A stretch of 64,000 bases of DNA, taken from Citrobacter gillenii (GTDB lineage: Bacteria > Pseudomonadota > Gammaproteobacteria > Enterobacterales > Enterobacteriaceae). Below, piece after piece: positions 4,121 through 33,400 of this stretch. The notes beneath the pieces are model-generated. The model searched no databases and had not been told where the DNA came from. It saw nothing but the letters and a program-made list of their open reading frames with translations. Position 1 is the first letter of the stretch; the number at the start of each line of letters is the position of its first letter. The translations under genes and the position numbers were made by a program. The stretch covers positions 310,001 to 374,000 of the forward strand of contig NZ_SUQN01000003.1 of assembly GCF_013337685.1 (NCBI RefSeq), given 5' to 3'.

Positions 4121-4330
4121 TTTATTTGTTCCCGCGCTTTGCAATATGGCGATTCACACTCAGAGCGATGATGAGTGTCCTTTCAACGATTCTGCGTGGG
4201 TACAAATATTATCGAACCGGGATATACCTGCAGATGTACCTACATCAGCAGGTTGATGTAAATTGAATCAGGTTGACTTAGGTTGAGTGAAAAAGCGTGG
4301 AAAGCCTTGCGGATACTGGATTTCAGGCAT

Positions 4331-4354
4331 AAAAAAAGACGTCTGTTGACGTCT
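4331..4354 (-). terminator. Terminator hairpin, left copy of the leuX terminator
   Basis: On the minus strand, arms AGACGTC and GACGTCT around a four-base loop are followed by seven T. The same hairpin with one changed pair lies after leuX at 33278-33302. Confidence 0.65.
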
Positions 4355-4367
4355 GATTTTTCGCTTT

Positions 4368-4387
4368 TGGTGCGAAGGCCGGACTCG
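4368..4387. other. Left attachment site (copy of the tRNA-leuX 3' end)
   Basis: Twenty bases repeat the last 21 bases of leuX as read on the plus strand (TGGTG, then GAAGGCCGGACTCG), with one C missing. The matching copy inside the tRNA is 33316-33336. Sequence to the right is unrelated to the tRNA. This is the usual result of site-specific integration into a tRNA 3' end by a P4-type integrase. Confidence 0.8.
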
Positions 4388-11227: not shown

Positions 11228-11250
11228 GGAAACTCCTGCAATTAATAAAA

Positions 11251-11281: not shown

Positions 11282-11350
11282 TATGCTGGTATGTTCATGA
11301 AGATGATATATATCTGAGATTTGTTTAAATTACGTAACGCTCACCAATAA

Positions 11351-12978: not shown

Positions 12979-13099
12979 CGACAAGTAAATATTGAGCCGA
13001 AGTTTTTTTACAACAGAAGCCATTGATGTGGAGGAGCTGACGGTAATGATTGGTTTACTAGCAGCTCCGGTTATTCATCTTTAACCGGAACACATCACC

Positions 13100-13306
13100 A
13101 TGTATACAAAACCTGCACTGCTTGAAGATCAATTCATTGATATGAAATTCATTACCCAGCTTACTGGCCTGAGCGATAAATGGTTTTATAAGCTGATACA
13201 GGATGGATTATTTCCTAAACCGATTAAGCTAGGCAGAACGTCCCGCTGGCTAAAGAGTGATCTGGAAGAATGGCTATATTACCGTATTTACGAATCTCGT
13301 AATTAA
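13100..13306 (+). CDS. AlpA-type regulator/excisionase
   Basis: The 68-residue protein is an AlpA-family helix-turn-helix (MerR-like fold): FITQLTGLSDKWFYKLIQDG, then FPKPIKLGRTSRWLKSDLEE. AlpA of CP4-57 activates the integrase gene and so promotes excision. This island has an integrase of the corresponding type at its other end, so the same role is likely. It follows the Gp2-like gene by 121 bases and precedes the DISARM operon by about 300. Confidence 0.9.
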   Translation: MYTKPALLEDQFIDMKFITQLTGLSDKWFYKLIQDGLFPKPIKLGRTSRWLKSDLEEWLYYRIYESRN

Positions 13307-13600
13307 ACCCTATGGCCCGGAGAAAATGCTTTCATCTGTAATCAAGATTAAGCGTCCCCTTCCCTCCTTGTCAAAGCCAAGACTAATCAATACACAAGCG
13401 TTTACGTGACTTACTGTTCGTGAGATCATACCTTCAAAATCTAAATCATGGGCAGCTTCAACAGATTAGCTTGGAAATCGTTATAAGTTAACACCTAAAC
13501 TCAGTGAAAACGCCGGCGAAGTTAAGCCGAAATGAGATAAGTACATGATTTCATTAACAGCTAGTCAGCTGATTTCCTTTAAGAACGAGAAGATTATTAG

Positions 13601-14644
13601 ATGAAGAAAGTATCTTGTGTTGATTTATTTTGTGGTGCAGGCGGGTTGACACATGGTCTTGTGCTTGAGGGAGTACCTGTTGTCGCAGGTATTGATATTG
13701 ATCCTGCCTGCAAGTTTCCCTATGAGACTAATAATCAAGCAAAATTTATTGAAAAAAGTGTAAGCGATTTTACATCTTCAGAATTAAATGAGCTTTACGC
13801 TGATTCAGATGTGAGGATTCTTGCAGGTTGTGCACCTTGCCAACCGTTCTCAAGCTACGCAAGACGCTATGAGCATGGTGGTAAGGATGGGAAATGGGGG
13901 CTATTGTACGAGTTTTCTCGCTTGGCTGAGGAAACGTGCCCAGATCTGATCACCATGGAGAATGTCCCTTCCGTTGCAAAACATGAAGTTTTCAACGACT
14001 TTGTCGATACCTTAAAACGCATTGGCTACCATGTGTGGTATAGCGTGATCGATTGTACGCATTATGGTGTTCCCCAAACGCGCAAACGCATGGTTCTACT
14101 CGCTTCACTACATGGCGAAATTAAGCTAACTGAGTCAACTTGCATTCAACCCATTACAGTACGGGAAGCAATTAGAAATTTACCTGCTATAAAAGCTGGT
14201 GAGTCAGACATTGGGGACAAGTTGCATGTTACTTCAACGTTGTCAGTGAAAAACCTACAACGTATCAAAGCTTCTAAACCCGGTGGGACGTGGCGTGATT
14301 GGCCAGAGCATCTAGTTGCTGACTGCCATCGCACCGATAGAGGCAAAACATACTCAAGTGTCTATGGCCGTATGGAATGGGATAAACCAGCTCCCACAAT
14401 GACCACGCAGTGCTATGGCTTTGGGAACGGCCGCTTTGGCCATCCAGAACAAGACCGGGCAATCTCTTTGAGGGAAGCCGCTATCCTACAAAGTTTTCCT
14501 CAAGACTATGTATTTGTTCCCAAAGAACAAAAAGTAAGTCTTAGAATTCTGGGGCGTATGATAGGTAATGCTGTTCCTGTGAAGCTTGGTCAGGCAATCG
14601 CTCGTAGTATCAATGCACACCTTAGTGATGTGAATTTAGCCTGA
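13601..14644 (+). CDS. drmMII: C5-cytosine DNA methyltransferase (DISARM DrmMII type)
   Basis: The 347-residue enzyme has all main C5-methyltransferase motifs in order: motif I DLFCGAGGLTHG, motif IV with catalytic C80 in GCAPCQPF, motif VI ENVPS, motif VIII QTRKRM, and motif X GNAVPV near the end. It would methylate a cytosine in a specific target and mark host DNA as self. It is 58 bases upstream of drmD and points the same way, so it is probably the first gene of the DISARM operon. In the published scheme this methylase belongs to class 2 DISARM, whereas the genes after it are class 1. The recognition sequence cannot be read from the protein. Confidence 0.85.
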   Translation: MKKVSCVDLFCGAGGLTHGLVLEGVPVVAGIDIDPACKFPYETNNQAKFIEKSVSDFTSSELNELYADSDVRILAGCAPCQPFSSYARRYEHGGKDGKWGLLYEFSRLAEETCPDLITMENVPSVAKHEVFNDFVDTLKRIGYHVWYSVIDCTHYGVPQTRKRMVLLASLHGEIKLTESTCIQPITVREAIRNLPAIKAGESDIGDKLHVTSTLSVKNLQRIKASKPGGTWRDWPEHLVADCHRTDRGKTYSSVYGRMEWDKPAPTMTTQCYGFGNGRFGHPEQDRAISLREAAILQSFPQDYVFVPKEQKVSLRILGRMIGNAVPVKLGQAIARSINAHLSDVNLA

Positions 14645-14702
14645 ACGAAGTGAGAACGTTTAACCAGCTACTGGGCATAGTGAACCGGAATCTGAATAAT
14701 GT

Positions 14703-17700
14703 ATGGATATTTCGAATAAAATAAACCAGGTCCAAAGAAGTACTCCTGAGCCAGGACAGCTCGTTGAAGTTCGCCGACGCCAATGGATCGTTGTAGAAGT
14801 CGCATCCTCTCAATTACCAACTGCTTCATCTCAGCAGCATGCAGTGACTCTTTCTTCTATTGATGAAGATGGTTTAGGGGAATTACTTGAGGTCATCTGG
14901 GAAATTGAACCAGGGGCTCAAGTAATTGAACGCGCTGGTTTGCCATCAATTACTGGCCTTGATGACTCTGACACCCTGGAAGCCTTTCTTGATGCTGTGC
15001 GCTGGGGGGCAGTGACCAAAGCAGACCACCGTAATTTCTTACAAGCACCATTTCGTAGTGGAGTCAGCATTGAGGACTTCCAACTGGATCCTTTGGTTCG
15101 TGCAATTGACATGGCTCGTGTCAATTTACTCATCGCCGATGACGTAGGCCTTGGTAAAACCATTGAGGCTGGGTTAATCATTCAAGAGATGTTACTTCGA
15201 CATCGTGCTCGTACGGTTTTGATTGTCTGTCCTGCATCGTTGCAGGAGAAGTGGCGTATGGAAATGCTGGAAAAATTCGGTCTAGAATTTCATATCGTCG
15301 ATACCAGTTATATCAAGAGATTAAGGCGTGAACGAGGAATTCATGCCAACCCGTGGACATCGCATCCACGGTTAATCACTTCGATGGACTGGGCCAAGAG
15401 CGGCGAAGGCCTACGCGCCATGCGTGATGTTCTCCCCCTAAAGACCAGCTATCCACGCAAATTTGACATGCTGGTCATTGACGAAGCACACAACATCGCA
15501 CCAGTAGGTGGAGCAAGCTACGCCATGGAAAGTCAGAGGACTCGATTCATCCGCTCGATCAGCCCTCACTTCCAGCATCGTTTGTTTCTAACCGCTACAC
15601 CACATAATGGCTATACCGAATCTTTCACTTCTTTGTTAGAACTGCTGGACGATCAACGCTTTGCCAGGAACGTACTTCCAGACGAGAAACAGCTGAATCA
15701 GGTGATGATACGTAGACTCAAAAGTGATTTGGTCGATTCAGAGGGTAAGCTGCTCTACGCTCAACGCAAACTCGAAGCCTTATCCGTCGCATACTCAGCA
15801 CAAGAGCGCTCTATCCACGATAAACTAAATGAATACTGCAAAAGCAGAGAACAAGATGCAGAGAAATCTAATAAAATCTTTGGGACTGCCTTTGTCAATC
15901 AGCTGCTGAAGAAACGACTATTTTCCTCACCTGCAGCCTTCGCATCCACGCTTGAAAAACACATAGCAACTTTAACACATGGCAAGCAAACCAGTGACAA
16001 GAACGCTATGGCAGAGCGTATTCTGCGCAAAGCAATTCTTCGGGCTGAAGAGGATTACGCCAACGATCAAGAGGTAGAAAATGCCCAAGCAGAGGCCGTT
16101 GAAGAAGCCTCTCGTCACACCCTACCGCTCACGCCCGACCAGAAAGAATTATTGAATGATCTGCGCCAATGGGCACAAATAGCCAAGTACCAAGTAGATG
16201 CTAAAGCTAAGGGTGTTCTTGATTGGATTGACACAAATTTAAAAACACATGGTCATTGGAATGAACACCGGGTGATTCTGTTCTCCGAATATCGAACCAC
16301 TCATCAATGGATGCACGAGATTCTTGCCAGCCATGGACTTGGTGGCGAGCGCTTGGCTATTCTTCATGGAAGCATGGCGCAGGATGAACGCGAGAAAGTC
16401 AAAGCAGCATTCCAGACATCACCTAAAACATCTGCCGTTCGCATCCTACTTGCTACTGATGCTGCTTCAGAAGGTATCGATCTGCAGAATTACTGTAATT
16501 ACCTGATACATCTAGAGATTCCTTACAATCCCAATGTAATGGAACAACGCAATGGACGTATCGATCGCCACGGACAGCGCCAGAAAGAAGTCGTGATCTG
16601 GCATCCCGTGGATGGAAGTGAAAACGGTGATCTTCGTATCGGTGGTCACGGTGACGACATCCTTCGAGCTCTACGGAAACTCGAATCAATGCGAGCAGAC
16701 ATGGGCAGTGTCAATCCAGTCATCGCACCACAAATGTCAGGTTTGATTGAAGGCTCTATCAAAGAAATTGATACTCGTCTAGCAGAATCCAGAATCGCAA
16801 AAACCAGACGCTTCATTACTGCTGAGCGCGAACTTAAAGAACGAATTGCTAAGCTACATGATCGACTCTTGTCTGCTAAGCATGATTTTCATCTTACTCC
16901 TGAACATATCCACATGGCCGTTAATACCGGTCTCACACTTGCAGGCCGTCCAAATCTAGAGCCTTTTGAGCTACCGGATTTGCCTGCTGGCTCTATATTC
17001 AAGATGCCTGCACTGTCAGGTACATGGGCACGCTGTCTTGAAGGATTGCGACACCCCTACACCCAGCAGATTCGCCCCATAACATTTGATCACTCAGTGG
17101 CTAAAGGTCGCGATGATGTCGTATTGGTCCACTTGAATCACCGTTTGGTGCAGATGTGCCTGCGTTTACTACGAGCCGAGGTGTGGGCACATGATGATGT
17201 AAAGAACTTGCATCGAGTTACAGTACGCTCAGTACCAGACACATTACTTAATAGTCCTGCTGTGGCCGTCGTCTCACGATTGGTCATCACTGGGGGTAAT
17301 CACCATCGACTTCATGAAGAGTTGACAGTAGCGGGGGGCTATCTTGGTGACAAAGCCTTTCGACGTGAAGAAGGCGTCAACAAAATTCAACAATGGTTCG
17401 AACAAGCTAAATCATTGACCACTGAATTTGCGCTATTTGATGCCTTCCGCGTTCGTTTTAATCGTGCACAAAACAGCATTCTTCAGTCTGTTGAGGCAAG
17501 ATCAAAAGACCGTCTGCAAAACCTAACTAATACCCTTCAGACCCGTAAAGATCGTGAATTGGCTGATATCAGTAATGTTCTCAACGAACTTGAAAGAACT
17601 ATTACTGCTGAGTTGGCGAAAGATCAACAACCTATGCAGTTTTCACTGTTCTCAGAAGATGAACGAATACAACTCAGACGTGATAATGCTGCCTTGGAAG

Positions 17701-17843
17701 CTCGTCTTGCACGCATACCGACAGAGCGCGAACAGGAAATACAAGCAATTGAAACTCGCTACACCAAAATTGATGACCGCACTTTCCCAGTTGCAGTCAT
17801 TTTTCTCGTTCCTGAATCTACTATTCAGAGGGGTGTAGCATGA
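14703..17843 (+). CDS. drmD: DISARM SNF2-like helicase DrmD
   Basis: The 1046-residue protein is a SNF2-type superfamily 2 ATPase: Walker A DDVGLGKT with GLGKT at residues 149-153, Walker B DEAH at 260-263, motif III TATPHNG, and the C-terminal helicase lobe with QRNGRIDRHGQRQ near residue 615. A long charged region follows (about 650-1046), helical and probably coiled coil near the end. DrmD defines class 1 DISARM, a multi-gene anti-phage restriction system. Its ribosome site is weak. The stop overlaps drmMI by four bases (ATGA), so the two are coupled. Confidence 0.85.
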   Translation: MDISNKINQVQRSTPEPGQLVEVRRRQWIVVEVASSQLPTASSQQHAVTLSSIDEDGLGELLEVIWEIEPGAQVIERAGLPSITGLDDSDTLEAFLDAVRWGAVTKADHRNFLQAPFRSGVSIEDFQLDPLVRAIDMARVNLLIADDVGLGKTIEAGLIIQEMLLRHRARTVLIVCPASLQEKWRMEMLEKFGLEFHIVDTSYIKRLRRERGIHANPWTSHPRLITSMDWAKSGEGLRAMRDVLPLKTSYPRKFDMLVIDEAHNIAPVGGASYAMESQRTRFIRSISPHFQHRLFLTATPHNGYTESFTSLLELLDDQRFARNVLPDEKQLNQVMIRRLKSDLVDSEGKLLYAQRKLEALSVAYSAQERSIHDKLNEYCKSREQDAEKSNKIFGTAFVNQLLKKRLFSSPAAFASTLEKHIATLTHGKQTSDKNAMAERILRKAILRAEEDYANDQEVENAQAEAVEEASRHTLPLTPDQKELLNDLRQWAQIAKYQVDAKAKGVLDWIDTNLKTHGHWNEHRVILFSEYRTTHQWMHEILASHGLGGERLAILHGSMAQDEREKVKAAFQTSPKTSAVRILLATDAASEGIDLQNYCNYLIHLEIPYNPNVMEQRNGRIDRHGQRQKEVVIWHPVDGSENGDLRIGGHGDDILRALRKLESMRADMGSVNPVIAPQMSGLIEGSIKEIDTRLAESRIAKTRRFITAERELKERIAKLHDRLLSAKHDFHLTPEHIHMAVNTGLTLAGRPNLEPFELPDLPAGSIFKMPALSGTWARCLEGLRHPYTQQIRPITFDHSVAKGRDDVVLVHLNHRLVQMCLRLLRAEVWAHDDVKNLHRVTVRSVPDTLLNSPAVAVVSRLVITGGNHHRLHEELTVAGGYLGDKAFRREEGVNKIQQWFEQAKSLTTEFALFDAFRVRFNRAQNSILQSVEARSKDRLQNLTNTLQTRKDRELADISNVLNELERTITAELAKDQQPMQFSLFSEDERIQLRRDNAALEARLARIPTEREQEIQAIETRYTKIDDRTFPVAVIFLVPESTIQRGVA

Positions 17844-20800
17844 GTTTGACTAATTTACACGCCGATTGGCTATCACTGATCGACATTTCAGGACCCTTTC
17901 TCGCAATTCCCGTACTGATGGAAGCCTTCCCTCAGGGGCTAGAAGAACTCAACGGAATCAAACGCAAACGGGTACGCCAGGCCTATGATGAATGGCGTGA
18001 AGCGCTGGAACAGGAAGATCCTCTGTTAATTGAATTGCACTATGCATGGCTTGATGAGGTCCTATCTCGAGTCCTTGATCTTGATGAAGATGGTAAAAGT
18101 GATGTACTAAAACGCGTTGAATGGTGCGCAAACCATCTGGAATCTGTGCTACCGGATCATGGTGTAGCCCAGTACCCAGATTTAGCCGTTGTTGATGAGC
18201 AACGTGCAAACAAGCCATTGATGCTCATACACACCTATACACCGGACGTGGATCTTGAGGCCACGATGAAACAGGATGGATGGCTAACTACCCCGGCAGA
18301 CCGCATGGTCCAGTTATGCCGCTCTCTTGATTGTCGTCTCGGGTTAGTGACTAACGGTGAACGCTGGATGTTAGTAGATGCGCCAGTTGGTGCGGTTACC
18401 TCCTTCGCCAGCTGGTATGCACGCCTATGGAACCAAGAGCCAATTACATTGCAAGCTTTTGTGCACCTGCTCGGAATCCGTCGTTTCTTCGTTAATGAAT
18501 CCGAACAATTACCAGCATTGTTCGACTGTTCGCTGAAATACCAAGACGAAGTGACCGACGCTTTAGGTGAACAAGTCCGCCGCGCCGTAGAAGTATTAAT
18601 ACAGTCCCTCGACAAAGCTGATCAAGATCGTAATCGCGAACTACTGCACAACGTTATAGAGACCGAGCTTTATGAAGCCGCACTGACTGTCATGATGCGT
18701 CTAGTATTCCTTCTCTCGGCTGAGGAGCGCGGACTACTACTCTTGGGCGACGAACGCTACGAGACCAACTATGCGATTTCCACTCTACGCATGCAGTTAC
18801 GTAAAGAGTCTTCAGAAATCCTCGAACGACGTTGGGATGCCTGGTCACGCCTGCTGGCAATCTTCCGTGCAGTTTACTGCGGCGTAGAGCACGAGAACTT
18901 GCGTCTACCCGCATTGGGTAGCTCACTGTTCGATCCCGACCACTTCCCTTTCCTTGAGGGAAGGGCCAAAGGTTCTAATTGGCGAACAGATACAGCTAAA
19001 CCATTGCCAATTGATAACCGTACTGTTCTGCTCCTACTGGAAGCTATTCAACAGTTCCAGGGACGCACACTTTCCTATCGCGCATTGGATGTGGAACAGA
19101 TCGGTTATGTCTACGAAGGTCTGCTTGAACGCACAGTCAGGCGCATCGGTGAAGTCACGCTAGAACTAGATGCAACAAAAAAAGCGCAATCACCTTGGGT
19201 CAAATTGGCTGAGCTGGATTCTGCAAACATGGATGGTATCGAGTGCTTGGTCGAATTGCTGCAAGAACGCTCTGGTAGTTCTGTCAGTAGGGTGCGAAAA
19301 GATCTGACTAAAACAGTCGATGACACCTTAGCCGATCGCCTCTTAACAACTTGCCAAGGCGACATACAACTACGCGACCGAATCAAACCCTACGTTCACC
19401 TACTTCGAACCGATCCTTGGGGTTATCCTTTGGTCTATCCTGCCGGGGCTTTCATCGTCACCAGCGGTTCTAATCGACGCGAGACTGGCACTCACTACAC
19501 ACCGAAATCGCTTACCGAAACCATCGTTACTGAAACGCTAACACCGATGGTCTATATCGGGCCAGTGGAAGGTACTCCACGTGAAGCGTGGAAACTTAAA
19601 TCCCCCGTCGAACTTCTTGATATTAAGATCTGTGACCCTGCAATGGGCTCGGGTGCTTTTCTTGTACAAGCCTGCCGCTGGCTGGCCGATCGTCTCGTTG
19701 AGGCTTGGTCGCTGGCTGAAGAAGCAGGAAAAATGGTGAGTGAGGACGGCTACGTACTGGAGATGCCTGACACAAAAGAGCTACTGCCACGCGATACCGA
19801 TGCTCGCATCGTCATCGCCCGCCGCCTTATCGCCGAACGCTGCCTTTATGGTGTTGACTTGAATCCACTGGCAGTTGAGCTTGCTAAGCTTTCCATCTGG
19901 CTAGTAACGTTAGCTAAGGGTCGACCATTTGGGTTTCTTGACCACAATTTACGCTGTGGTGACAGTTTGCTTGGTATCCATCGGATTGATCAGCTTACCC
20001 AGCTTTCGATGAGTCCTACAACTCAAGGACAGCTGCGTCTGTTCGGCAAAGATATTAAGCAGGCTGTACACGAAGCCATTGCGCTGCGCCAGCAATTACG
20101 TGAGACATCTATTCGCGATGTGCACGACGTGGAGTCTATGGCACAACTGAACACCAATGCTCAATTCAGACTAGATGTGCCGCGACGTATTGCAGATGCG
20201 TTTATCGGGGAAGTATTTGCAGCAAACGGCAATGCCGTAGCATTGGAAACCGCTTTAGTATCTCTTGCCATCCAAGCCGAGCAAGCGATGGAAGGTGATA
20301 ACGAACAACTTGTGTTAATACAACAAAGGACAATCACTGCTTTTTCTACTGATTTGCTCACCGACAAGCTATCTCGTAAGCCTTTCCATTGGCCATTAGA
20401 GTTTCCAGAGGTGTTTGAGCGTTGCGGAGGATTTGACTGTATAGTCGGTAATCCACCATTTTTAGGTGGACAAAAAATTACTGGTACCATGGGTGATTGT
20501 TATCGAGAGTATTTGGTAAACGCAATCGCTGGCGGAAAACGGGGTTCTGCTGATTTGGTTGCCTATTTCTTTATTAAAGCTAATTCTTTACTTGCTCCTC
20601 ATGGATTCTTTGGGTTGATCGCGGTGAATACCATATCAGAAGGAAATACCAGAGAAGTTGGGCTTGATTCAATACTTAATTTAGGCTCAGTAATTTATAG
20701 CGCAATCCCAAATTTAGTGTGGCCAGGTAAAGCTAATGTTGTTACTAGTAGTGTGTTTATTTCAAAATCAAAATGGAACGGCCCTTTATACATTTCAGAT

Positions 20801-21892
20801 CATCAAGTTTCAGTCATTAGTGCAGCATTAACGCAGCGAGAAAACTGGCGACCTGTCAAGTTGAAGGATAGTTGTGGTCTAGTATTTCAGGGAGTTATAA
20901 CTCTTGGCGAAGGATTTTTAATTGACAACGAAACTTATACAAATTGGGTTGATGAAAGGGACAAATCCTGTGAGATAGTTTTTGACTATCTGATAGGGAA
21001 AGAGGTGAATCAATCACCAACACATGCACCAAGTCGAAGAGTGATTAATTTCTTTGATCTTGATGAAAGTGCTGCTACGCAATATTCATCTGCATTCAAT
21101 TTAATTGAAAAATTTGTCAAACCGGAAAGACAGCGTCAGAAAGATGGTGAGTATGTGCTTAGAAGCCCTCTACCACAGCGGTGGTGGCAATATGGAGAAA
21201 AAAGACCAGCTTTATTTCATAAAATTGGAAGAGGTTCAAACTTCATTAGCCATCCTAAGGGCTGGAGTAATGATATTAAACCGCTTAAGCGAGTTATTGT
21301 TTTTGCAACAGGTGCAACAAAATATCCCTGTTTTACACTAGTACCGAATACATATATCTATGCTAATACACTCTGTGTAATTGCTAGCGATAGCTATTCA
21401 CTATTTGCTTGCCTGTCATCCGATATTCACGCGGTTTGGGCTTGGGAACATGGTTCTCGAATGAAGCAAGACTTACGTTATACGCACGGAGATATCTTCG
21501 AAACATTTCCTTTTCCTCCAGATGTTATAGATCAAAACGATCAATTACTATCTTCTTTGGGAGCAAAATTTTTCGAAGAAAGAGCGACATATATGGTGAA
21601 TGAAAATCAAGGGATGACCAAGTTCTACAATGCCTTCCACAATCCAGAAAGATCATCTCCATCTCTCAGCGAATTACGCAAACTGCAAGTAAAAATAAAT
21701 CTAGCTGTGTTACATGCCTATGGTTTCGATGACTTGGACTTAAGCCATGATTTTCATGAAGTGGCGTACTTACCAGAAGGAAAAAATATTCGCTATACCA
21801 TCAGTGAGTTTGCCAGAGAAGAATTGCTCTATCGCTTGGCTAACCTGAACAGAATCCGGCATGAGGAAGAACAAAGAAAAGGATCAAAGTAA
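17840..21892 (+). CDS. drmMI: DISARM adenine methyltransferase DrmMI
   Basis: At 1350 residues this is a large N6-adenine methyltransferase of the type IIG/PglX kind. AdoMet motif I is DPAMGSG at 599-605 and the catalytic NPPF is at 871-874. An N-terminal part of nearly 600 residues precedes the methylase core, and about 450 residues after it probably hold target recognition. GAGGGG precedes the ATG. The sequence near residues 110-135 has an Asp followed by a strand but no E-x-K, so no active nuclease is apparent. In DISARM this enzyme modifies host DNA and is needed for self/non-self discrimination. The last third is more AT-rich than the core, as specificity domains often are. Confidence 0.85.
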   Translation: MSLTNLHADWLSLIDISGPFLAIPVLMEAFPQGLEELNGIKRKRVRQAYDEWREALEQEDPLLIELHYAWLDEVLSRVLDLDEDGKSDVLKRVEWCANHLESVLPDHGVAQYPDLAVVDEQRANKPLMLIHTYTPDVDLEATMKQDGWLTTPADRMVQLCRSLDCRLGLVTNGERWMLVDAPVGAVTSFASWYARLWNQEPITLQAFVHLLGIRRFFVNESEQLPALFDCSLKYQDEVTDALGEQVRRAVEVLIQSLDKADQDRNRELLHNVIETELYEAALTVMMRLVFLLSAEERGLLLLGDERYETNYAISTLRMQLRKESSEILERRWDAWSRLLAIFRAVYCGVEHENLRLPALGSSLFDPDHFPFLEGRAKGSNWRTDTAKPLPIDNRTVLLLLEAIQQFQGRTLSYRALDVEQIGYVYEGLLERTVRRIGEVTLELDATKKAQSPWVKLAELDSANMDGIECLVELLQERSGSSVSRVRKDLTKTVDDTLADRLLTTCQGDIQLRDRIKPYVHLLRTDPWGYPLVYPAGAFIVTSGSNRRETGTHYTPKSLTETIVTETLTPMVYIGPVEGTPREAWKLKSPVELLDIKICDPAMGSGAFLVQACRWLADRLVEAWSLAEEAGKMVSEDGYVLEMPDTKELLPRDTDARIVIARRLIAERCLYGVDLNPLAVELAKLSIWLVTLAKGRPFGFLDHNLRCGDSLLGIHRIDQLTQLSMSPTTQGQLRLFGKDIKQAVHEAIALRQQLRETSIRDVHDVESMAQLNTNAQFRLDVPRRIADAFIGEVFAANGNAVALETALVSLAIQAEQAMEGDNEQLVLIQQRTITAFSTDLLTDKLSRKPFHWPLEFPEVFERCGGFDCIVGNPPFLGGQKITGTMGDCYREYLVNAIAGGKRGSADLVAYFFIKANSLLAPHGFFGLIAVNTISEGNTREVGLDSILNLGSVIYSAIPNLVWPGKANVVTSSVFISKSKWNGPLYISDHQVSVISAALTQRENWRPVKLKDSCGLVFQGVITLGEGFLIDNETYTNWVDERDKSCEIVFDYLIGKEVNQSPTHAPSRRVINFFDLDESAATQYSSAFNLIEKFVKPERQRQKDGEYVLRSPLPQRWWQYGEKRPALFHKIGRGSNFISHPKGWSNDIKPLKRVIVFATGATKYPCFTLVPNTYIYANTLCVIASDSYSLFACLSSDIHAVWAWEHGSRMKQDLRYTHGDIFETFPFPPDVIDQNDQLLSSLGAKFFEERATYMVNENQGMTKFYNAFHNPERSSPSLSELRKLQVKINLAVLHAYGFDDLDLSHDFHEVAYLPEGKNIRYTISEFAREELLYRLANLNRIRHEEEQRKGSK

Positions 21893-21967
21893 TAAGAGAA
21901 AATAGGTCCCCAAACCAATAGACCATCGGAACCGTGTATAAGGCAGTATTTTGGGTAAGGAGCCCGT

Positions 21968-24900
21968 ATGACAGAGAAAAGCAAATCAACTATATCGCCT
22001 AATGCATGGTTCGCTATTGACCGTGACCGAGTGAAAGATCCCGCCTTAGCCTCCTTTGCACTGCTATTAAAAGGTGGACGTCCCCTTAATCAAGGTATAT
22101 CCAATGACGATTGGGTATTGATCCTGGACAAAACAGGTCATATCACCCGAGTGGGGCGTATTCTGCGTATTCGTTCTGATCTCGAAACCACCACACTCTT
22201 TTTCGATCGAATGTTGCAGGTTGAGCCATCGGTTTCAATTGGTATGACCTCCATCAAATTACCTGCTAAAGGAAGCTCTGGTCGCATTCAATGGAAAGAT
22301 TTCATTGAAATGCTCCCCGAGGTACTGCACACGAGCATTGCTGAAATACCAACGATCGAAGATCAGACATACATCCGTGAATTACTGCAGTTGGCTGTGA
22401 TGGATGACTTGCTCGGTCCGGCAGCCGGTCCTAATGAACTTATAGTCGATATGGGAGTGAGAGACCGCTATTTGGTTGGTAAGCTTGCGCCACGTGAAGC
22501 AGCCGAACGCGGCTCAGAGTTTCCAGTAGATCCAGAAAATGCAGACGATGATGCTGGAGACCAGATTGTTAAAGCTCAGACGACAAAAGTTAATTCTCCA
22601 ACAGTAGCTGGTCGTGGAGAACCTGACGCACCGGAAGAAATTGATGCCGCTAGCAACCAATCATTGATACCAAGTAGCCTCGGAATGACTTTCTGTGTAG
22701 ACGGCGATGTTGCTCAAATCGAAATCGAAGCTCGTTGGGGACGTTACGAACGCAGCGAAGATCATGAGATCTACAGAACTCGCAAAAACAAGGAAACAGG
22801 AGTCGAAGAGCAGACAAAAGCCAAAGTCTGGCAGCGCATCCCTTGTGGTGGGAAAAGAGTATTATCGCTTACCGAAGGGGTTATTTCACCAGAACCGCTA
22901 GACTGCACCACTCCAGAAGTCCTGATACAAGGTACCATCCGTCCCAAAAATGAGAATGGCGATCGGCTAGTCACACTATTCCTTGTCAATAATCAGGAAG
23001 AACCGCCTTCTAACCGTGACTCGGCATGGGTTTTCCAACCTGAATTGATTGCTCGACCAATACAAGATGCTGTCGACCCATTTGTTTTTAGGCGTAAACC
23101 TGTTCTGAATGCTGACGGTGTGGATCCTGAACGCGAAGCATTAGAAATGATTTACCAGAACCGCGTAGAATTTGCAGTAGGGCATGGTGTTGCGGTACAT
23201 GCTGAAACTGCGGATAACGTAGAACTAGCGACAGAAATTCGTACGACTGTGATGCCTCAGTACGAGGTACAAAGAACTGAGACGCCTGGTCTTGATATAT
23301 CTGATCGGCCAGCGCTGCAGAAAATGGTAAGTAGTGGTTTCCTTGATATGCAGACACTGGCGACTTTGGATATAGATTCGCTCGTTAATGCATTGAGTAT
23401 GCTGACCAAGGACTACGATGCGTGGATAAGTGAGCAGTACTCAAGCATGGGAACCAAGGCTACAAGATTTGACGCTCAAGCCCAAGCAGCCATGGATAGA
23501 TGCAAAGAAATTCTTATCCGCCTGCAACAAGGTATTGACACACTTAAACATAATGAAAAAGCGTTGCTGGCTTTCCGTTTCGCTAACCGGGCAATGGCAG
23601 CACAGCGCATACGCAGTTTATACGCACTGGATAAACGTCGTGGAAAAGATGTTACGGTCGAAAAATATAATAAAGAAAAAAACCGTACCTGGCGCCCTTT
23701 TCAGTTGGCATTCCTGTTGCTTTCCATCCCATCGTTGGCAGACCCGTGCCATCCCGATCGAGTACAACCTGTAAATGCTTATGCTGACCTACTGTGGTTT
23801 CCTACTGGTGGCGGCAAGACTGAAGCCTATTTAGGTGTAGCGGCCTTCACTATGGCCATACGGCGTCTACAGGGTAATTTAGGCGGGTATGATAGCTCAC
23901 GCGGCTTAGCCGTTATCATGCGATACACACTTCGCCTGCTAACACTGCAGCAGTTTCAGCGTGCGACAGCTTTGATTTGCGCAATGGAAGTATTGCGCCG
24001 CGAAGCACAAGATAATGGAGATAAATCCCTTGGTATAGAACCTTTCACTATAGGTCTTTGGGTCGGAAATAAGGTGACTCCGGGTTCTACCGATGACAGT
24101 CATCGAGCCGTTGAAGATGCCCGCAATCCAGGTAAGTACAATGCAGGTGCAGCTTCACCCGCCCAACTAACCAGTTGTCCTTGGTGTGGTACCGAAATAG
24201 CACCAGGACAGGACGTAGAGGTTCACAAGGACAAATCGGGTGGCCGAACTTTCGTTTACTGCGGTGACAAAAAGGGGCGTTGTGACTTTTCAAAGGGCAA
24301 ATCAAGCAATCAATCACATCCCGGTATTCCAGTATTGGTAGTGGATGAAGAGATCTATCACCGCCCTCCAACGATGATGATTGCCACAGTGGACAAGTTC
24401 GCCATGATGGCGTGGCGCGGTCAGGTACGGACACTCTTTGGCCGGGGGGGACAGGAATGTACGCGGCATGGTTTGCTCTGGCCAGGAGCCAACTGCAACG
24501 GCAATCACCCAGCCTCCAAGGGGCAACCTTCCACTAAGGCGAAAACTATCGGCCCTATCCGACCACCAGACCTTATTATCCAAGATGAGTTCCATCTCAT
24601 CAGCGGGCCTCTGGGCACGATGGTAGGGTTATATGAAACCGCTGTTGATGAGTTGTGTAGTTGGACACTTGATGACAAGACCGTCAAACCGAAAGTCATC
24701 GCTTCTACAGCAACCGTCCGCAAAGCTAAAGAACAAGTAAACAGCGTCTTCATGCGCAAAGTAGCAGTGTTTCCGCCGCATGGATTGGATGTTGAAGATA
24801 ACTTTTTCTCGGTTCAACGTGCAATAAAAGAGAAGTATGGTCGTCGTTATCTCGGCGTATGTTCACCCGGTAGCTCAAGACCTGCAATGTTAATTCGCGT

Positions 24901-25966
24901 TTACACCGCTTTCCTGACCGCGGCACAAGAATTATTTAACCACTTTGGTGAACCAGCCGATCCCTACATGACTATGGTCGGTTATTTCAACTCGCTACGT
25001 GAATTAGGTGGGATGAAACGACTGGCAGAGGATGATGTGCAGACACGTTCTTATCGGGTCCAAATGAGTATGGTTGAGCGGCCCGCATTGGCACAACGCA
25101 GTATAAGCAACATTCGCGAACTAACTTCCCGCGTATCTAGCCAAGACATTCCTAAATACCTTGATAACTTAGAGGTTAAATTCAAGTCTGAATTTGATAC
25201 AACTACCGGTAAATATGTTACCAGATGGCAGGAAGGTGATACTCGAGCCATTGATATCGTACTCGCCACCAACATGTTGTCAGTAGGTGTTGATATCAAT
25301 CGACTTGGTCTCATGGCAGTGAATGGTCAACCCAAAGGAACAGCGGAATATATTCAGGCTACCAGTCGCGTGGGGCGCTCATTTCCTGGTTTGGTTTGTA
25401 CCGTACTCACATGGGCTCGTCCGCGAGACTTATCTCACTATGAAACATTTGAACATTATCACGCCACTTTCTACAAACATGTAGAGGCTCAATCGGTCAC
25501 CCCATTCTCTCCTCGAGCTATGGATCGCGGTTTAACAGGGACTCTGTTAAGCCTTGTACGTCTGGAGAATGACGCATTCAACCCGAATGAAGGCGCAGGC
25601 CAATTGAGTACGTCTAATCAATTCGAGATCAGCAATGCCATCAAAGTGCTGGCAACAAGAGCAGGTAATGTTGCGGAAGACAACTCGCGTAAAAAATTAG
25701 CAGAGAATGAATTGAAAGAGCGTGCCGACGAATGGGCAAAAAAAGCATCTATGGGCGGAAGAATTCTCGGATATGAAAAGCGTGGGCCTGAAAAGGATAA
25801 GACAGTTAATTTAATTGAATCTCCAGGCCTGAAGCCGTGGGATAACTGGACGGTTCCAATGTCAATGCGAGAAGTCGAACCGGGCGTACGACTGATAATG
25901 AACAAAAACCATATCACTGATGATAAAGATTGGAAGCCACGTCCCGCAACGAAGGGTGAGGATTGA
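21968..25966 (+). CDS. drmA: DISARM helicase DrmA
   Basis: The 1332-residue protein carries a helicase-type P-loop TGGGKT at 613-618 and a DEFH box at 873-876 in place of the more usual DEAH, then helicase-C motifs (LATNMLSVGVD, and ATSRVGRSFPG). Between the lobes four cysteines (C737, C740, C765, C772) form a likely zinc site. The N-terminal 550 residues include an acidic linker. DrmA with DrmB forms the core DISARM complex that loads on phage DNA. AAGGAG lies before the ATG; the gap from drmMI is 75 bases and drmB follows at once. Confidence 0.9.
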   Translation: MTEKSKSTISPNAWFAIDRDRVKDPALASFALLLKGGRPLNQGISNDDWVLILDKTGHITRVGRILRIRSDLETTTLFFDRMLQVEPSVSIGMTSIKLPAKGSSGRIQWKDFIEMLPEVLHTSIAEIPTIEDQTYIRELLQLAVMDDLLGPAAGPNELIVDMGVRDRYLVGKLAPREAAERGSEFPVDPENADDDAGDQIVKAQTTKVNSPTVAGRGEPDAPEEIDAASNQSLIPSSLGMTFCVDGDVAQIEIEARWGRYERSEDHEIYRTRKNKETGVEEQTKAKVWQRIPCGGKRVLSLTEGVISPEPLDCTTPEVLIQGTIRPKNENGDRLVTLFLVNNQEEPPSNRDSAWVFQPELIARPIQDAVDPFVFRRKPVLNADGVDPEREALEMIYQNRVEFAVGHGVAVHAETADNVELATEIRTTVMPQYEVQRTETPGLDISDRPALQKMVSSGFLDMQTLATLDIDSLVNALSMLTKDYDAWISEQYSSMGTKATRFDAQAQAAMDRCKEILIRLQQGIDTLKHNEKALLAFRFANRAMAAQRIRSLYALDKRRGKDVTVEKYNKEKNRTWRPFQLAFLLLSIPSLADPCHPDRVQPVNAYADLLWFPTGGGKTEAYLGVAAFTMAIRRLQGNLGGYDSSRGLAVIMRYTLRLLTLQQFQRATALICAMEVLRREAQDNGDKSLGIEPFTIGLWVGNKVTPGSTDDSHRAVEDARNPGKYNAGAASPAQLTSCPWCGTEIAPGQDVEVHKDKSGGRTFVYCGDKKGRCDFSKGKSSNQSHPGIPVLVVDEEIYHRPPTMMIATVDKFAMMAWRGQVRTLFGRGGQECTRHGLLWPGANCNGNHPASKGQPSTKAKTIGPIRPPDLIIQDEFHLISGPLGTMVGLYETAVDELCSWTLDDKTVKPKVIASTATVRKAKEQVNSVFMRKVAVFPPHGLDVEDNFFSVQRAIKEKYGRRYLGVCSPGSSRPAMLIRVYTAFLTAAQELFNHFGEPADPYMTMVGYFNSLRELGGMKRLAEDDVQTRSYRVQMSMVERPALAQRSISNIRELTSRVSSQDIPKYLDNLEVKFKSEFDTTTGKYVTRWQEGDTRAIDIVLATNMLSVGVDINRLGLMAVNGQPKGTAEYIQATSRVGRSFPGLVCTVLTWARPRDLSHYETFEHYHATFYKHVEAQSVTPFSPRAMDRGLTGTLLSLVRLENDAFNPNEGAGQLSTSNQFEISNAIKVLATRAGNVAEDNSRKKLAENELKERADEWAKKASMGGRILGYEKRGPEKDKTVNLIESPGLKPWDNWTVPMSMREVEPGVRLIMNKNHITDDKDWKPRPATKGED

Positions 25967-25968
25967 AT

Positions 25969-27840
25969 ATGAATAGTGATGAGAAAACACCTGTGGGTGA
26001 AGTACGCCCCAGCCAATTACTTTGGACCTATGGGCCTGGAGCGCTAATTGATCTTCCAAATCTATCTGTCGTAACGCTTGGAATAGACCGGTGGGAAAAG
26101 AACCGTTGCCAGCCAATCCAGGAAATCCGGCTGCTTGAAGCAGTTCGGAAGAAATTGGGAGATCAAGTTGAAAGTTTGCGTATGCCACCATTTCAGAAAG
26201 GTGAAGTGGTCGATATGTGGTCTGCTGAAGCAAATATAGGAGTTCCCGTTCGTCCTTTCCCACGGTGGCTACGTTGCGTAAAGTGCGGGCTTCTTTCACC
26301 TTATGATGCTGGATTATTTGAGATCAAAGAAAATCGGTATAGACCCGAACGCACTCGCTTTCTCCATAAAGGCTGCCGAGGTTCTAAAGGAGATCAGCCT
26401 GCCAGGGACGCGGATGCCGTACCTGCCCGTTTCCTGTTGGCCTGCCGTGATGGTCATCTTGATGATTTTCCTTGGCATTACTTTGTTCACGGCGGCAACA
26501 GCTCGTGCAAAGGGACGCTGCGATTCTTTGAAAGTGGAGCCTCGCTACAAACCGAAAATTTATGGGTAAAATGCGATGAATGCGAAGCCTCAAGGAGTAT
26601 GGCACATGCGTTTGGTAAGGCAGGCAAAGAGAATCTTCCTGCATGCAGGGGACGTCATCCTCACTTGGATTACTTCGACACCGAATGCGATGTGGAACCA
26701 CGTGCAGTATTGTTAGGAGCCACTAATAGTTGGTTTCCGATGACGCTGTCTGCACTCGCGATCCCTCTGTTGCATGTATCACCATTACATCAGATTATTA
26801 TTGATTATTGGGATGATCTCGCTGATGTGGAGGATCGTTCTGAGCTGAAGGGGATACTCAAAGCGCTCAAGAAAAGGGGTGAGGCTCAAGGCATTGAGAA
26901 ACACGACCCAGAGACAATTTGGTTAGCTATTGAAGCACATCGGTCGGATAATTGTGAAGAATCTGTCGGTGAGATCGATATCAAAGGGCCAGAGTGGGAT
27001 GTTCTAATAGAACCAAATCCCCCTGCAGACTACCCACATTTCATGAGTAAGAAGACCTGTACTCCTCCACGATTTTCACCATTTATCGAACGAGTATTAC
27101 TCCTAGAACGGCTACGTGAGGTCAATGCATTAGTCGGATTTACTCGAGTTGAAGCGCCTGAAGAATCTGACGATCCGAGTGAACGTGTTCAAATGGCTAA
27201 TCTATCGCGAAACAGACCTGACTGGGTGCCAGCCAGCCAAGTACATGGCGAAGGTATTTTCCTCCAATTTAATGAAGAAGTCTTAGTTGCTTGGGAGTCG
27301 CTGGATGCGGTCAAAAAAGTGGACAAAATGCTTCGTGATGGGCATACCGGATGGCGAAATTCACGTCATCTAGATCCCAATGAGGGCTATCCAGGTATTC
27401 GCTTTGCCATGCTTCACACACTTTCACACGTGCTGATTCGTGAGCTGGCACTGGAATGTGGATACAATGCCGCAAGTATTCGTGAACGCATCTATGCCAA
27501 TACAACCTATGATAGTCCGCAGGCTGGTATCCTTATCTACACAGCTGCCGCCGATTCAGACGGTACTCTGGGAGGTCTAGTCGATCTTGGTAAACCGGAA
27601 AATCTAGGTCGGTTACTAGTACAAGCGCTGAATCGCTCAACGGTTTGCTCCTCTGACCCTCTATGTTCTGAACATGATCCAGCGAAGGATCGCTCGTTGC
27701 ATGGTGCCGCATGCCATGCATGCAGTTTAGTAGCCGAAACCTCTTGCGAGAAGGGAAACCGCTACTTGGATCGAGCTCTGCTTGTGCCAACACTTGAGTA
27801 CGCTGATGCAGCTTTCTTCAAGGATTTATTAAATGGATGA
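25969..27840 (+). CDS. drmB: DISARM DUF1998 protein DrmB
   Basis: From ATG at 25969 the product has 623 residues; a TTG two codons earlier, overlapping the drmA stop, is an alternative. It is the DUF1998-type partner of DrmA. Cysteine pairs that could hold zinc are seen in LRCVKCGLL, VKCDECEAS and in the C-terminal group CSSDPLCSEH, then ACHACSL and SCEKGN. DrmA and DrmB form the central complex of all DISARM classes. The stop overlaps the drmC start by eight bases, so the last three genes are tightly coupled. Confidence 0.88.
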   Translation: MNSDEKTPVGEVRPSQLLWTYGPGALIDLPNLSVVTLGIDRWEKNRCQPIQEIRLLEAVRKKLGDQVESLRMPPFQKGEVVDMWSAEANIGVPVRPFPRWLRCVKCGLLSPYDAGLFEIKENRYRPERTRFLHKGCRGSKGDQPARDADAVPARFLLACRDGHLDDFPWHYFVHGGNSSCKGTLRFFESGASLQTENLWVKCDECEASRSMAHAFGKAGKENLPACRGRHPHLDYFDTECDVEPRAVLLGATNSWFPMTLSALAIPLLHVSPLHQIIIDYWDDLADVEDRSELKGILKALKKRGEAQGIEKHDPETIWLAIEAHRSDNCEESVGEIDIKGPEWDVLIEPNPPADYPHFMSKKTCTPPRFSPFIERVLLLERLREVNALVGFTRVEAPEESDDPSERVQMANLSRNRPDWVPASQVHGEGIFLQFNEEVLVAWESLDAVKKVDKMLRDGHTGWRNSRHLDPNEGYPGIRFAMLHTLSHVLIRELALECGYNAASIRERIYANTTYDSPQAGILIYTAAADSDGTLGGLVDLGKPENLGRLLVQALNRSTVCSSDPLCSEHDPAKDRSLHGAACHACSLVAETSCEKGNRYLDRALLVPTLEYADAAFFKDLLNG

Positions 27841-28594
27841 ACTTCTGGAAGCCATTTCAGCATTGATCTCTCTTGTCTCATCCGAGAAGGTAAGATCCAT
27901 CGCTGAGCACATGCGTCGCATTAACGCCAACAAATCTATGACCACACTAGACAGTGTGGTCAGTACCCCGATAGCTGCGACAGTGGTCAAACAACTCGCG
28001 ATCGCTTGGCAGAAGACTTCCATCAGTCCAAATGAGTTAGCAGCTATGCTTCTTGCTGCCAGCCACATATATTCCAAAGTTACTTCAGAGCAATCTACTG
28101 AATTAGTGTGGACCGGGCCAACTACACCATTTGTTTCAGCGCGCCGCACCGAGCAGGCATTACTGCAGGTTATTAGCGCAGCAGAGCGAACTCTGTTCAT
28201 TACTAGTTTTGTCGCTTATAACGTTCCGACTATAGCGAAAGCACTAAACGCAGCAAATGAGCGTGGAGTTATGATCTCAATTTTACTTGAATTATCCCAA
28301 GACCAAGGTGGTAGTGTAACTTTCGATACGATCGCAAAGATGAGGATACAAGTGCCGTCTGCCAAGCTTTATACATGGCAAGATAAGGACAATGAATATT
28401 ATGGCGGATGTGTCCACGCAAAAGTTGCAGTTGCTGATGCCAAGGAGTGTTTTATTACCAGTGCAAACCTAACCGAACATGCTATGGAAAAGAACATAGA
28501 AGCAGGCGTGCTTATTTCAGGTGGAAGCATTCCAAAGCAACTTAATGAGCATCTTTTTTCACTTGTTAAAACAAAAATAATTAGTTTAGTGTGA
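27833..28594 (+). CDS. drmC: DISARM phospholipase-D-like protein DrmC
   Basis: The 253-residue protein has one HKD motif: H195, K197 and D202 in VHAKVAVADAKECF, followed by ITSANLTEHAMEKN. A single HKD per chain suggests a dimer, as in PLD-type nucleases such as Nuc. About 90 N-terminal residues are helical and unlike other PLD enzymes. DrmC is the third conserved DISARM gene, and the family's experimental record suggests it is less essential than DrmA and DrmB. It ends the operon; a strong hairpin lies 218 bases later. Confidence 0.88.
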   Translation: MDELLEAISALISLVSSEKVRSIAEHMRRINANKSMTTLDSVVSTPIAATVVKQLAIAWQKTSISPNELAAMLLAASHIYSKVTSEQSTELVWTGPTTPFVSARRTEQALLQVISAAERTLFITSFVAYNVPTIAKALNAANERGVMISILLELSQDQGGSVTFDTIAKMRIQVPSAKLYTWQDKDNEYYGGCVHAKVAVADAKECFITSANLTEHAMEKNIEAGVLISGGSIPKQLNEHLFSLVKTKIISLV

Positions 28595-31853: not shown

Positions 31854-33116
31854 CTATTTTCCAACATTGATTTTCGCAAAATCAAACGGGCTAACCCCCT
31901 TCTCCCGATTCGCATCCAAATAATCCGCCCACCACTGCACCATCAGCCTCCGCTCCCCTAAGTGTTCAGCCTTATGAATATAAGCCGCACGCACAGAGTT
32001 ACGCTCTTGATGACTCATCTGCCGTTCTACAGCATCCTTCGACCACAATCCCGACTCAATCAATGAACTACAAGCCATGGTTCTAAAACCATGTCCGCAA
32101 ACTTCAACTTTCGTATCGTAGCCCATCACACGCAAAGCCTTGTTAACCGTGTTCTCACTCATCGGCTTACGAGGATCATGATCGCCAACGAAAATTAGCT
32201 CGCGATTCCCACTCATACTTTTGATCTTTTCCAAAATCAATAGAGCTTGCCGCGATAAAGGAACAAGATGAGGAGTCCGCATTTTTGATCCTCGATGTGA
32301 ATGCTTCACACCTTCCAGTGGCTCACGCTCCCCCGGAATCGTCCACATTGCGTTTTCAAAATCGACTTCTGACCAGCGAGCAAAACGCAACTCACTAGAT
32401 CGAATGAAGACTAACAACGTCAGCTCGACAGCTAAGCTTGTTAATGGTCTGCCGGTATATGTGTCGATACGATGAAGTAGTTCAGGAATGCGATTAAGTT
32501 CTAGCGCAGCACGATGCTGTCGTTTAGCTGTGGCAACTGCTCCAGCGATCTCTTGTGCGGGGTTGTAATCAATTAAACCGCTTTGCACGGCAAATCGCAT
32601 AATTGCTGTTGTTCGTTGCTGTAGACGCGCCGCCACTTCAAGACGTCCAGACATCTCTACGGCTTTGATGGGAATAAGTAAATCTCTGGTTTTTAACTCA
32701 GCGATATTCCGCTTACCAATCGCATCGAACAGATTATCTTCCAGACTTTTAAGGACACGGGCACTATGGGACTCAGACCACTTTTGATTGCTAGCGTGCC
32801 AGTCTCTGGCAACAGATTCAAAAGTGATGACCTCTTTAGCCTGTTCTTCTTTTACTGCACGCTTATGCTCACGAGGATCGACACCGGCAGCAACAAGCCT
32901 CCTGGCCTCTTCCCTCTTTTGACGAGCATCAGCCAGTGAGGTTTCGGGGTAAACACCAAAAGCCATCAGGTGTTGTTTACCGCCAAAGCGAAAACGAAAC
33001 CGCCAATACTTTGAGCCATTTGGGTGAACAAGCAAAAACATGCCGTCGCCATCGACGAGCGAGTATTCCTTTGCCTCAGGTTTTGCCGAACGCACCTTGG
33101 TATCAGTCAGGGCCAT
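31854..33116 (-). CDS. P4-type tyrosine integrase
   Basis: The 420-residue protein has the N-terminal domain of P4/CP4 integrases (MALTDTKVRSAKP, then DGDGMFLLVHPNGSKYWRFR) and the tyrosine-recombinase catalytic residues R239 (FIRSSELR), H342 and R345 (HGFRTM), H369 (MSHQERN) and Y379 (RAAYIH). It begins 200 bases from the leuX 3' end and reads away from it, the standard arrangement for these islands. It would catalyse insertion into and excision from leuX with the AlpA-type protein at the other end as likely partner. It appears intact. Confidence 0.93.
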   Translation of the reverse strand: MALTDTKVRSAKPEAKEYSLVDGDGMFLLVHPNGSKYWRFRFRFGGKQHLMAFGVYPETSLADARQKREEARRLVAAGVDPREHKRAVKEEQAKEVITFESVARDWHASNQKWSESHSARVLKSLEDNLFDAIGKRNIAELKTRDLLIPIKAVEMSGRLEVAARLQQRTTAIMRFAVQSGLIDYNPAQEIAGAVATAKRQHRAALELNRIPELLHRIDTYTGRPLTSLAVELTLLVFIRSSELRFARWSEVDFENAMWTIPGEREPLEGVKHSHRGSKMRTPHLVPLSRQALLILEKIKSMSGNRELIFVGDHDPRKPMSENTVNKALRVMGYDTKVEVCGHGFRTMACSSLIESGLWSKDAVERQMSHQERNSVRAAYIHKAEHLGERRLMVQWWADYLDANREKGVSPFDFAKINVGK

Positions 33117-33302: not shown

Positions 33303-33315
33303 ATTTACATACATA

Positions 33316-33336
33316 TGGTGCCGAAGGCCGGACTCG
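33316..33336. other. Right attachment site within leuX
   Basis: The 21 bases at the tRNA 3' end (T-stem to CCA) match the left copy at 4368-4387 except for one extra C. The island insertion leaves a complete tRNA gene on this side. Confidence 0.8.
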
Positions 33337-33400
33337 AACCGGCACGTATTTCTACGGTTGATTTTGAATCAACTGCGTCTACCGATTTCGCCACTCCGGC
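33316..33400 (-). tRNA. leuX: tRNA-Leu, anticodon CAA
   Basis: The 85-base gene is read leftwards from GCCGGAGTGG to an encoded CCA. Acceptor stem (GCCGGAG with CTTCGGC, one G-U pair), anticodon stem-loop (GTTGA, TTCAAAA, TCAAC) and T-arm GGTTCGAGTCC are all visible. The anticodon CAA (complement of 33364-33366) reads UUG. Its 3' end is the island's integration site. Confidence 0.97.

Follow-up and report, generated by a model that had tools for sequence, protein, structure and literature searches.

A 64,000-nucleotide stretch of the Citrobacter gillenii genome (contig NZ_SUQN01000003.1, positions 310,001 to 374,000; the whole stretch is called the window here) holds an operon of the DISARM defense system that encodes both a C5-cytosine DNA methyltransferase (C5 methylase) and the N6-adenine methyltransferase DrmMI. 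In this branch of DISARM, the pairing of a C5 methylase gene with drmD is the rule, and the target domains of the two methylases appear to evolve in opposite ways. We consider it reasonably likely, at a probability of roughly 0.6, that the locus is a two-methylase class 1 DISARM on a tRNA-Leu island in which both methylation marks damp the DrmAB complex, the 5-methylcytosine (5mC) mark being constant and the N6-methyladenine (6mA) mark exchanged between operons.

Gene content of the operon

Six open reading frames (ORFs), none with an internal stop in translation, lie on the plus strand within 13601-28594, where the initial annotation placed them and in the order it gave: a C5 methylase gene followed by drmD, drmMI, drmA, drmB, and drmC. 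The first (13601..14644; 347 aa) encodes a DrmMII-like enzyme recognized by its motifs, PADLOC, and Pfam, with DLFCGAGG at residue 8, PCQ at 79-81, ENV at 120, VPQTRKR at 157, GNAVP at 322, and a target domain at about 170-285 (170-264 in our comparisons). It is followed by DrmD, an SNF2-like helicase (14703..17843; 1046 aa; NCBIfam NF038317), and DrmMI, an MmeI/type IIL-like enzyme (17840..21892; 1350 aa) with the S-adenosylmethionine motif DPAMGSG at 599, NPPF at 871-874, and a hypervariable target domain at about 950-1250. The last three genes encode the short form of the DrmA helicase, DrmAS (21968..25966; 1332 aa; NF038325, 1495 bits), the DUF1998/MZB protein DrmB (25963..27840; 625 aa, TTG start; NF038324, 769 bits), and the phospholipase D-like nuclease DrmC (27833..28594; 253 aa; NF038319, 262 bits; PLDc_2). 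Motor and catalytic motifs are intact in DrmA (FPTGGGKTE and DEFH), DrmMI (DPAMGSG and NPPF), and the C5 methylase (PCQ). The cysteine of PCQ is C80 (P79 C80 Q81) and NPPF begins at 871, which agrees with the earlier statement that C80 and NPPF871-874 are intact.

The top PADLOC model for the C5 methylase is DrmMII (PDLC02651; 1.8e-89), with the generic MTase_II model nearly equal (2.3e-88); DrmMI scores 1879 bits with its own model and 1859 with a type IIG model. For DrmD, a PADLOC model labeled DrmA comes out on top (1713 bits) and the DrmD model second (1516), and identity is settled by the NCBIfam model DISARM_DrmD (1392 bits against a cutoff of 610). The family matches of DrmA, DrmB, and DrmC in PADLOC/NCBIfam are unambiguous. 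The class 1 core as PADLOC defines it (drmA, drmB, drmC, drmD, and drmMI; PMC9252829) is complete. Class 2 DISARM, with DrmE and DrmMII, has in common with the window a C5 methylase assigned to DrmMII by PADLOC, but the window has DrmD and DrmMI, and no DrmE was found in the family listings of the six operon proteins (at most 25 each) or of eight neighboring proteins. Judged by its gene content, the locus is a class 1 DISARM of the two-methylase kind.

The initial annotation assumed that each published class uses one methylase. This premise follows common summaries: PADLOC type definitions have one methylase each, with no C5 methylase listed for type I (PMC9252829), and a 2023 review describes DISARM with either an adenine or a cytosine methylase (PMC10273834). 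It is outdated because PMC9142583 gives "DrmMI and/or DrmMII" as the methylases of a DISARM operon and describes one of Serratia sp. SCBI with both, with the motifs ACAC(mA)G and YMT(mC)GAKR. The DrmA and DrmB proteins of this Serratia class 1 system (PDB 7s9v, 7s9w) match those of the window over their full lengths (7s9v_A, 2464.6 bits; 7s9v_B, 1141.6 bits) and are the only PDB matches for the two proteins at 0.001. Both systems have N6-adenine and C5-cytosine methylases in one operon, for Serratia according to that paper. The abstract of a 2021 preprint on class 1 DISARM is also said to report an operon with both drmMI and drmMII. Other papers mention drmMII and drmD where the system is incomplete (PMC9716671) and DISARM with drmMI (PMC7365801). 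These two were set aside, as were PMC7720504, on a Methylomonas cytosine methylase and TGGCCA, in whose available text the word "DISARM" does not occur, and PMC12409345, PMC13390346, and PMC8011034.

The C5 methylase gene and drmD are separated by 58 bp (14645..14702, plus strand), at the position where vsr lies in 49 of 80 relatives; the gap is too short for a Vsr gene. As claimed earlier, no terminator is visible there: no terminator-like plus-strand site was found inside the gap. It contains one plus-strand promoter-like match (9/12, 14672-14700), and such sites in 13000-15000 are at chance level (2, against 3.7 +/- 2.1 in shuffles). In composition, the C5 gene resembles the drm genes (G+C, 0.448 against 0.44-0.48; third-position G+C, 0.371 against 0.39-0.42). 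Gene order, strand, and spacing suggest that the six genes share one transcript.

Recurrence of the C5-drmD pairing

An alignment of six DrmD proteins was used to scan for relatives of DrmD, and the best 80 of at least 539 loci were annotated with hidden Markov models (HMMs) for C5, Vsr, and drm genes. In 72 of the 80, a C5 gene lies on the same strand at most 600 bp upstream of drmD; the search of DISARM loci proposed in the initial annotation thus finds the pairing again and again. A Vsr gene separates the two in 49 of these 72 loci. It lies at 14547-14996 in L036, for example, and in some loci overlaps both neighbors. In the 23 adjacent loci without Vsr, the gap measures 17-228 bp by HMM match ends. 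Vsr is also missing from the nearest relative of the window operon, that of Raoultella sp. BIGb0138 (L042; DrmD 96% and C5 91% identical), which has the same order C5-drmD-drmMI-drmA-drmB up to the end of the available locus.

The remaining eight genomes all have a C5 relative (54-58% identity). It lies farther upstream of drmD in two (2.3 and 6.2 kb), at the 3' end adjoining drmC on the opposite strand in four Pseudomonas-type loci (with Vsr between in three), and, in one, 5 kb beyond drmC with intervening genes; in the last, of the Pseudomonas clade, it is found apart, on a contig of 5,666 bp that cannot be placed. On Deinococcus plasmid p96k, Vsr and C5 are likewise located after drmC. A convergent C5 gene is beyond the reach of the operon promoter, which argues that the link between C5 and DISARM is more than read-through. 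The 72 loci and these eight genomes support the earlier view that the C5 methylase belongs to the DISARM locus.

Could the C5 gene of an unrelated restriction-modification system simply have landed beside drmD? The many other contexts in which C5 relatives are found would fit such an accident, but the same gene order in 72 of 80 related loci refutes it for practical purposes, and among 274 genomes sampled from the class, only 16, counting that of the window, have a C5 relative (E <= 1e-30). DISARM-linked C5 enzymes also cluster in a tree of 94 proteins (78 of them DISARM-linked; a short search, with many weak forks and long branches), in which labels change 6 times, against 14.9 in shuffles. 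We regard a chance neighbor as extremely improbable. On the DrmD tree, C5 adjacency takes 5 changes and Vsr takes 11. An order-level DrmD search gave matches in 387 of 394 genomes, of which only two, the window's own and G166, pass the family cutoff; the rest score far lower, like other helicase families.

Opposite evolution of the two target domains

Target domains were compared in 67 of 82 rows (the 80 loci, L036, and the window), split or short DrmMI being excluded, and correlations were calculated for the 62 loci with a C5 methylase, full-length DrmMI, and DrmD; the C5 sequence of L109 ends at a contig edge, which gives it a low core score. Across the 62 loci, the median identity of the DrmMI target domain stays at 0.27-0.29 in every bin of DrmD identity from 0.55 to >0.9, whereas the identity of two other DrmMI regions and of both C5 regions broadly climbs with that of DrmD. 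The rank correlation with DrmD is -0.02 for the DrmMI target domain (293 of 500 permutations as high), compared with 0.58 for the C5 target domain, 0.65 for the C5 core, 0.89 for DrmMI residues 150-450, and 0.68 for DrmMI residues 530-740 (0 of 500 in each case). Among the 24 loci nearest the window, it is -0.14 for the DrmMI target domain and 0.63 for that of C5.

The contrast also shows in pairs of closely related operons. In 486 pairs with DrmD identity of >=0.75, the DrmMI target domain falls below 0.35 in 349 and exceeds 0.6 in 35, and the C5 target domain falls below 0.5 in none. In pairwise global alignments of the 169 pairs with DrmD identity of >=0.85 (43 loci, each recurring in many pairs, so that pairs are not independent), the DrmMI target domain has a median identity of 0.30 (<0.4 in 136, >=0.6 in 13; shuffled target domains, 0.19), compared with 0.89 for the DrmMI core (<0.4 in none) and 0.81 for the C5 target domain (<0.4 in none, >=0.6 in 164). 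When 186 close pairs are compared in sliding windows, the variable part of DrmMI spans about 800-1350, with identity lowest at 1000-1250; the end of the Pfam MmeI target domain profile matches residues 1160-1226, inside this part. Between the window and the Raoultella operon, DrmMI is 94-100% identical in 50-residue blocks over residues 1-750, 84-98% over 751-950, 78-80% over 951-1050, and 90-100% beyond 1150, but only 40-52% over 1051-1150, as if part of the target domain had been replaced.

Conversely, 51 of 1,331 far pairs (DrmD <70%) share a DrmMI target domain at >=60% identity, with values of up to 0.80 at a DrmD identity of 0.64, as module exchange predicts. In these alignments, the variation of the DrmMI target domain has the pattern of cassette exchange between operons, a process well known in the type I and type IIL families. 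Single-linkage clustering of these domains at 45% identity gave 15 classes but chained 33 of the 67 into one, and we therefore relied on the pairwise figures. By this comparison, the two marks look nonequivalent, with 5mC constant and 6mA shuffled.

The C5 family outside DISARM

In the genome sample and on plasmids (seven regions inspected, one without annotation), relatives of the C5 methylase have as partners HEPN_MAE_28990 with DUF262 (GmrSD_N), GHKL ATPases, or Vsr with a NERD-helicase. Around the best 80 of 193 C5 loci on viral contigs, within at most 5 kb to either side, we found HEPN with DUF262 in 42, GHKL in 20, DrmD (alone or with Vsr/DrmMI) in 8, NERD with Vsr and a weak DrmA-like ORF in 2, Vsr alone in 2, and none of these in 6. 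The trio of C5, Vsr, and NERD-helicase, with the same C5 family, occurs in the viral contigs L173 and L174 and in L124 and L125; in the first two, the weak DrmA-like ORF lies nearby on the other strand, and such a set is possibly another defense system. Three temperate phages carry the same family at 54-57% identity: PhiR44_1 (L246), in which the C5 gene adjoins a gene annotated paraMORC3, Moraxella phage Mcat32 (L247), and Peduovirus P24B2 (L248), in which the annotated methylase gene spans only part of the C5 match. C5 methylases near GHKL/paraMORC genes also appear in PMC8011034.

The C5 enzymes of the HEPN_MAE_28990/DUF262 and GHKL/paraMORC3 systems (L041, L146, L151, and phage PhiR44_1) are 54-58% identical to that of the window and keep its target domain, but their effector genes are unrelated and no drm genes were recognized alongside. 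The target domain is equally well kept in 14 close relatives whose partners are different or unknown (0.42-0.60; core, 0.44-0.62). It falls off in two more distant relatives (0.34 and 0.27; core, 0.32 and 0.34) and in two further C5 enzymes encoded by the window's genome (0.12 and 0.19; core, 0.21 and 0.30). A second C5 gene of this genome, followed directly by Vsr (C20:57773-59135), is Dcm/Vsr-like; its product differs from the DISARM enzyme in the target domain. In the C5 tree, a large group of 70 rows comprises 67 DISARM-linked, 2 NERD-linked, and 1 HEPN-linked enzymes, and a group of 11 comprises 9 DISARM-linked and 2 GHKL-linked ones; two rows are loose, one of them with a HEPN-linked enzyme. 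The initial annotation had named C5 genes beside unrelated genes, with no link to drmD, as evidence against its proposal. Such relatives do adjoin unrelated restriction genes, but the tree branch that holds the window's enzyme is DISARM-linked.

These partnerships raise a second alternative, in which the C5 gene, often with Vsr, is a portable stabilizing or repair-coupled module that travels with DISARM and lays no self mark. In its favor, the target domain is equally kept where this family stands beside HEPN/DUF262, GHKL (paraMORC3 in one phage), or NERD-helicase genes, a different C5 lineage occupies the 3' end in Pseudomonas loci, and in Caulobacter a Vsr-like protein makes the loss of a solitary C5 methylase costly (PMC12907096). 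But the C5 gene persists without Vsr in the window and in the 23 adjacent loci mentioned above, and 5mC has a published effect on the DrmAB ATPase (PMC9142583); a regain of a same-family C5 gene after upstream loss, if that happened, would also suggest need. We judge a module of this kind quite unlikely and retain the reading in which the C5 enzyme lays one of two marks that act on DrmAB.

Proposed roles of the two marks

In the proposed mechanism, DrmAB, made up of the helicase and the DUF1998 protein, would be the sensor and effector core, and both methylases would mark host DNA and so damp DrmAB, differently for each mark. By analogy with Serratia, the C5 enzymes of this branch may share the target YMTCGAKR and would lay a constant mark, YMT(mC)GAKR. 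DrmMI would lay a lineage-specific 6mA mark, its recognition domain being swapped between operons. The Serratia adenine motif may differ from that of the window and is unsafe to copy to it because DrmMI target domains are shuffled. DrmAB is reported to be activated by DNA with 5' overhangs. According to PMC9142583, its ATPase activity is lower on 5mC DNA, DISARM activity is related to methylation, and V1296 of DrmA is proposed as a methylation sensor. Allowing for a 7-residue length difference, this residue would correspond to V1303 of the window DrmA, in the segment MREVEPGV. A 2025 preprint predicts an EVE-like, modified-base domain at the N terminus of class 1 DrmA (PMC12458937).

The initial annotation proposed two independent self marks. 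Two marks are indeed plausible, but they would not be equal in kind, as the adenine target domain is shuffled and the cytosine one constant; we infer two nonequivalent marks in their place, and the mechanism where it goes beyond published DrmAB biochemistry. If the marks were equivalent, both methylases would give the same protection and either or both would be needed for viability. Both enzymes keep their catalytic motifs, both motifs are reported in Serratia, and DISARM activity is related to methylation there (PMC9142583); the opposite evolution of the two target domains, however, gives no hint of equal roles. In Serratia, moreover, deleting a single methylase reportedly does not cause autoimmunity. 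We therefore consider equivalence unlikely and favor two marks of different kinds.

Several observations weigh against the favored reading. The 80 loci are the closest DrmD relatives, the best of at least 539, and no C5 match at 1e-20 was found in distant class 1 plasmid records of Planktothrix, Pseudanabaena, and Nocardia (plasmids only) or in the whole genome G166, which has a class 1 set with drmD and drmMI. The five Pseudomonas C5 genes cluster as one clade (support, 99) to which no upstream C5 gene belongs, so the link of C5 with DISARM is not one unbroken inheritance. Since the C5 target domain is equally kept outside DISARM, its constancy may reflect the family as such and not selection by DISARM, of which it is no proof. 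Loss of either methylase is reportedly not autoimmune in Serratia, according to the 2021 preprint, which weakens simple self-protection.

Two sequence tests looked for traces of the marks. From drmD onward, MTCGAK occurs at 0.82 of expectation in the 49 loci with Vsr, 0.82 in 24 sequences without Vsr (window included), and 0.86 in 8 loci with no C5 adjacent, and the mirrored control KTCGAM occurs at 0.83, 0.84, and 0.87 in the same sets. Because the control is as depleted as the motif, the depletion says nothing about the motif, and no 5mC deamination footprint at MTCGAK was found beyond the control in this region. The N terminus of DrmA (residues 1-130), compared in 32 loci, is variable (median identity, 0.31) and tracks DrmD (0.54) and the C5 target domain (0.47; 0 of 500 permutations each) but not the DrmMI target domain (rho, -0.11; 480 of 500 as high). 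Hence no reader tuned to a private mark was detected there.

The island and its surroundings

The operon is carried by an island of ~29 kb that runs from a tRNA-Leu(CAA)/integrase end to a diverged left repeat. A tyrosine integrase gene (31854..33116, minus strand; Pfam) lies beside the insertion site, a tRNA-Leu (CAA) gene (33316..33400, minus strand). The left repeat of the integrase-tRNA junction (4157..4387; 75% over 239 columns) terminates in a copy of the tRNA 3' end and is the probable left boundary. Because this repeat and its counterpart at 33105-33337 each combine integrase-proximal sequence with the 3' end of the tRNA, the left copy may be a relic of another element inserted in tandem. 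Among 17 genomes of the genus, the right flank is matched nearly in full in 6 (own included) and by the tRNA and its nearest neighborhood alone in 11, as expected for an insertion hotspot. No near-identical match to the operon or its first 4.2 kb was found in Escherichia coli genomes.

The left part of the island (4800-12112) resembles a CP4-type module. It encodes a WYL-domain protein (8530-9309) and what we take to be a GTPase (10364-11227), a RadC-like protein (5900-6436), and a CbtA/CbeA-like pair (about 4836-5647). Closely upstream of the C5 gene lie two satellite-type genes, one for a Rep/YagK-YfjJ-like protein (12400-12978) and one for a small regulator (13100-13306; PADLOC mad1, 3.4e-5), presumably AlpA-like by name. 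Between drmC and the integrase gene are an HNH endonuclease gene (30534-31400) and a gene (29106-29972) whose product has no Pfam or PADLOC match.

Implications

The window is one more instance of the two-methylase arrangement already described, and the wider pattern matters more. The recurrent C5-Vsr-drmD order and the contrasting target domains are new relative to that arrangement; in the open-license literature, with subscription papers and bioRxiv mostly outside it, we found no report of either. Definitions with one methylase per class miss the near-constant C5 partner, often with Vsr, of this branch. The opposite evolution of the target domains offers a direct route to asking which mark DISARM uses to tell self from nonself, and the operons of the window strain and of Raoultella sp. 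BIGb0138, nearly identical save for part of the adenine target domain, make these two a natural test pair.

More tentatively, and as a possibility that we hold below even odds, class 1 DISARM in Proteobacteria and some other phyla may work with two keys: a fixed-target C5 key common to unrelated systems (HEPN/DUF262, GHKL, and NERD-helicase) and a private adenine key swapped as a cassette. If so, cells with any such system would bear a common 5mC mark, easing the entry of another's island, and the private 6mA mark would keep DISARM lineages apart.

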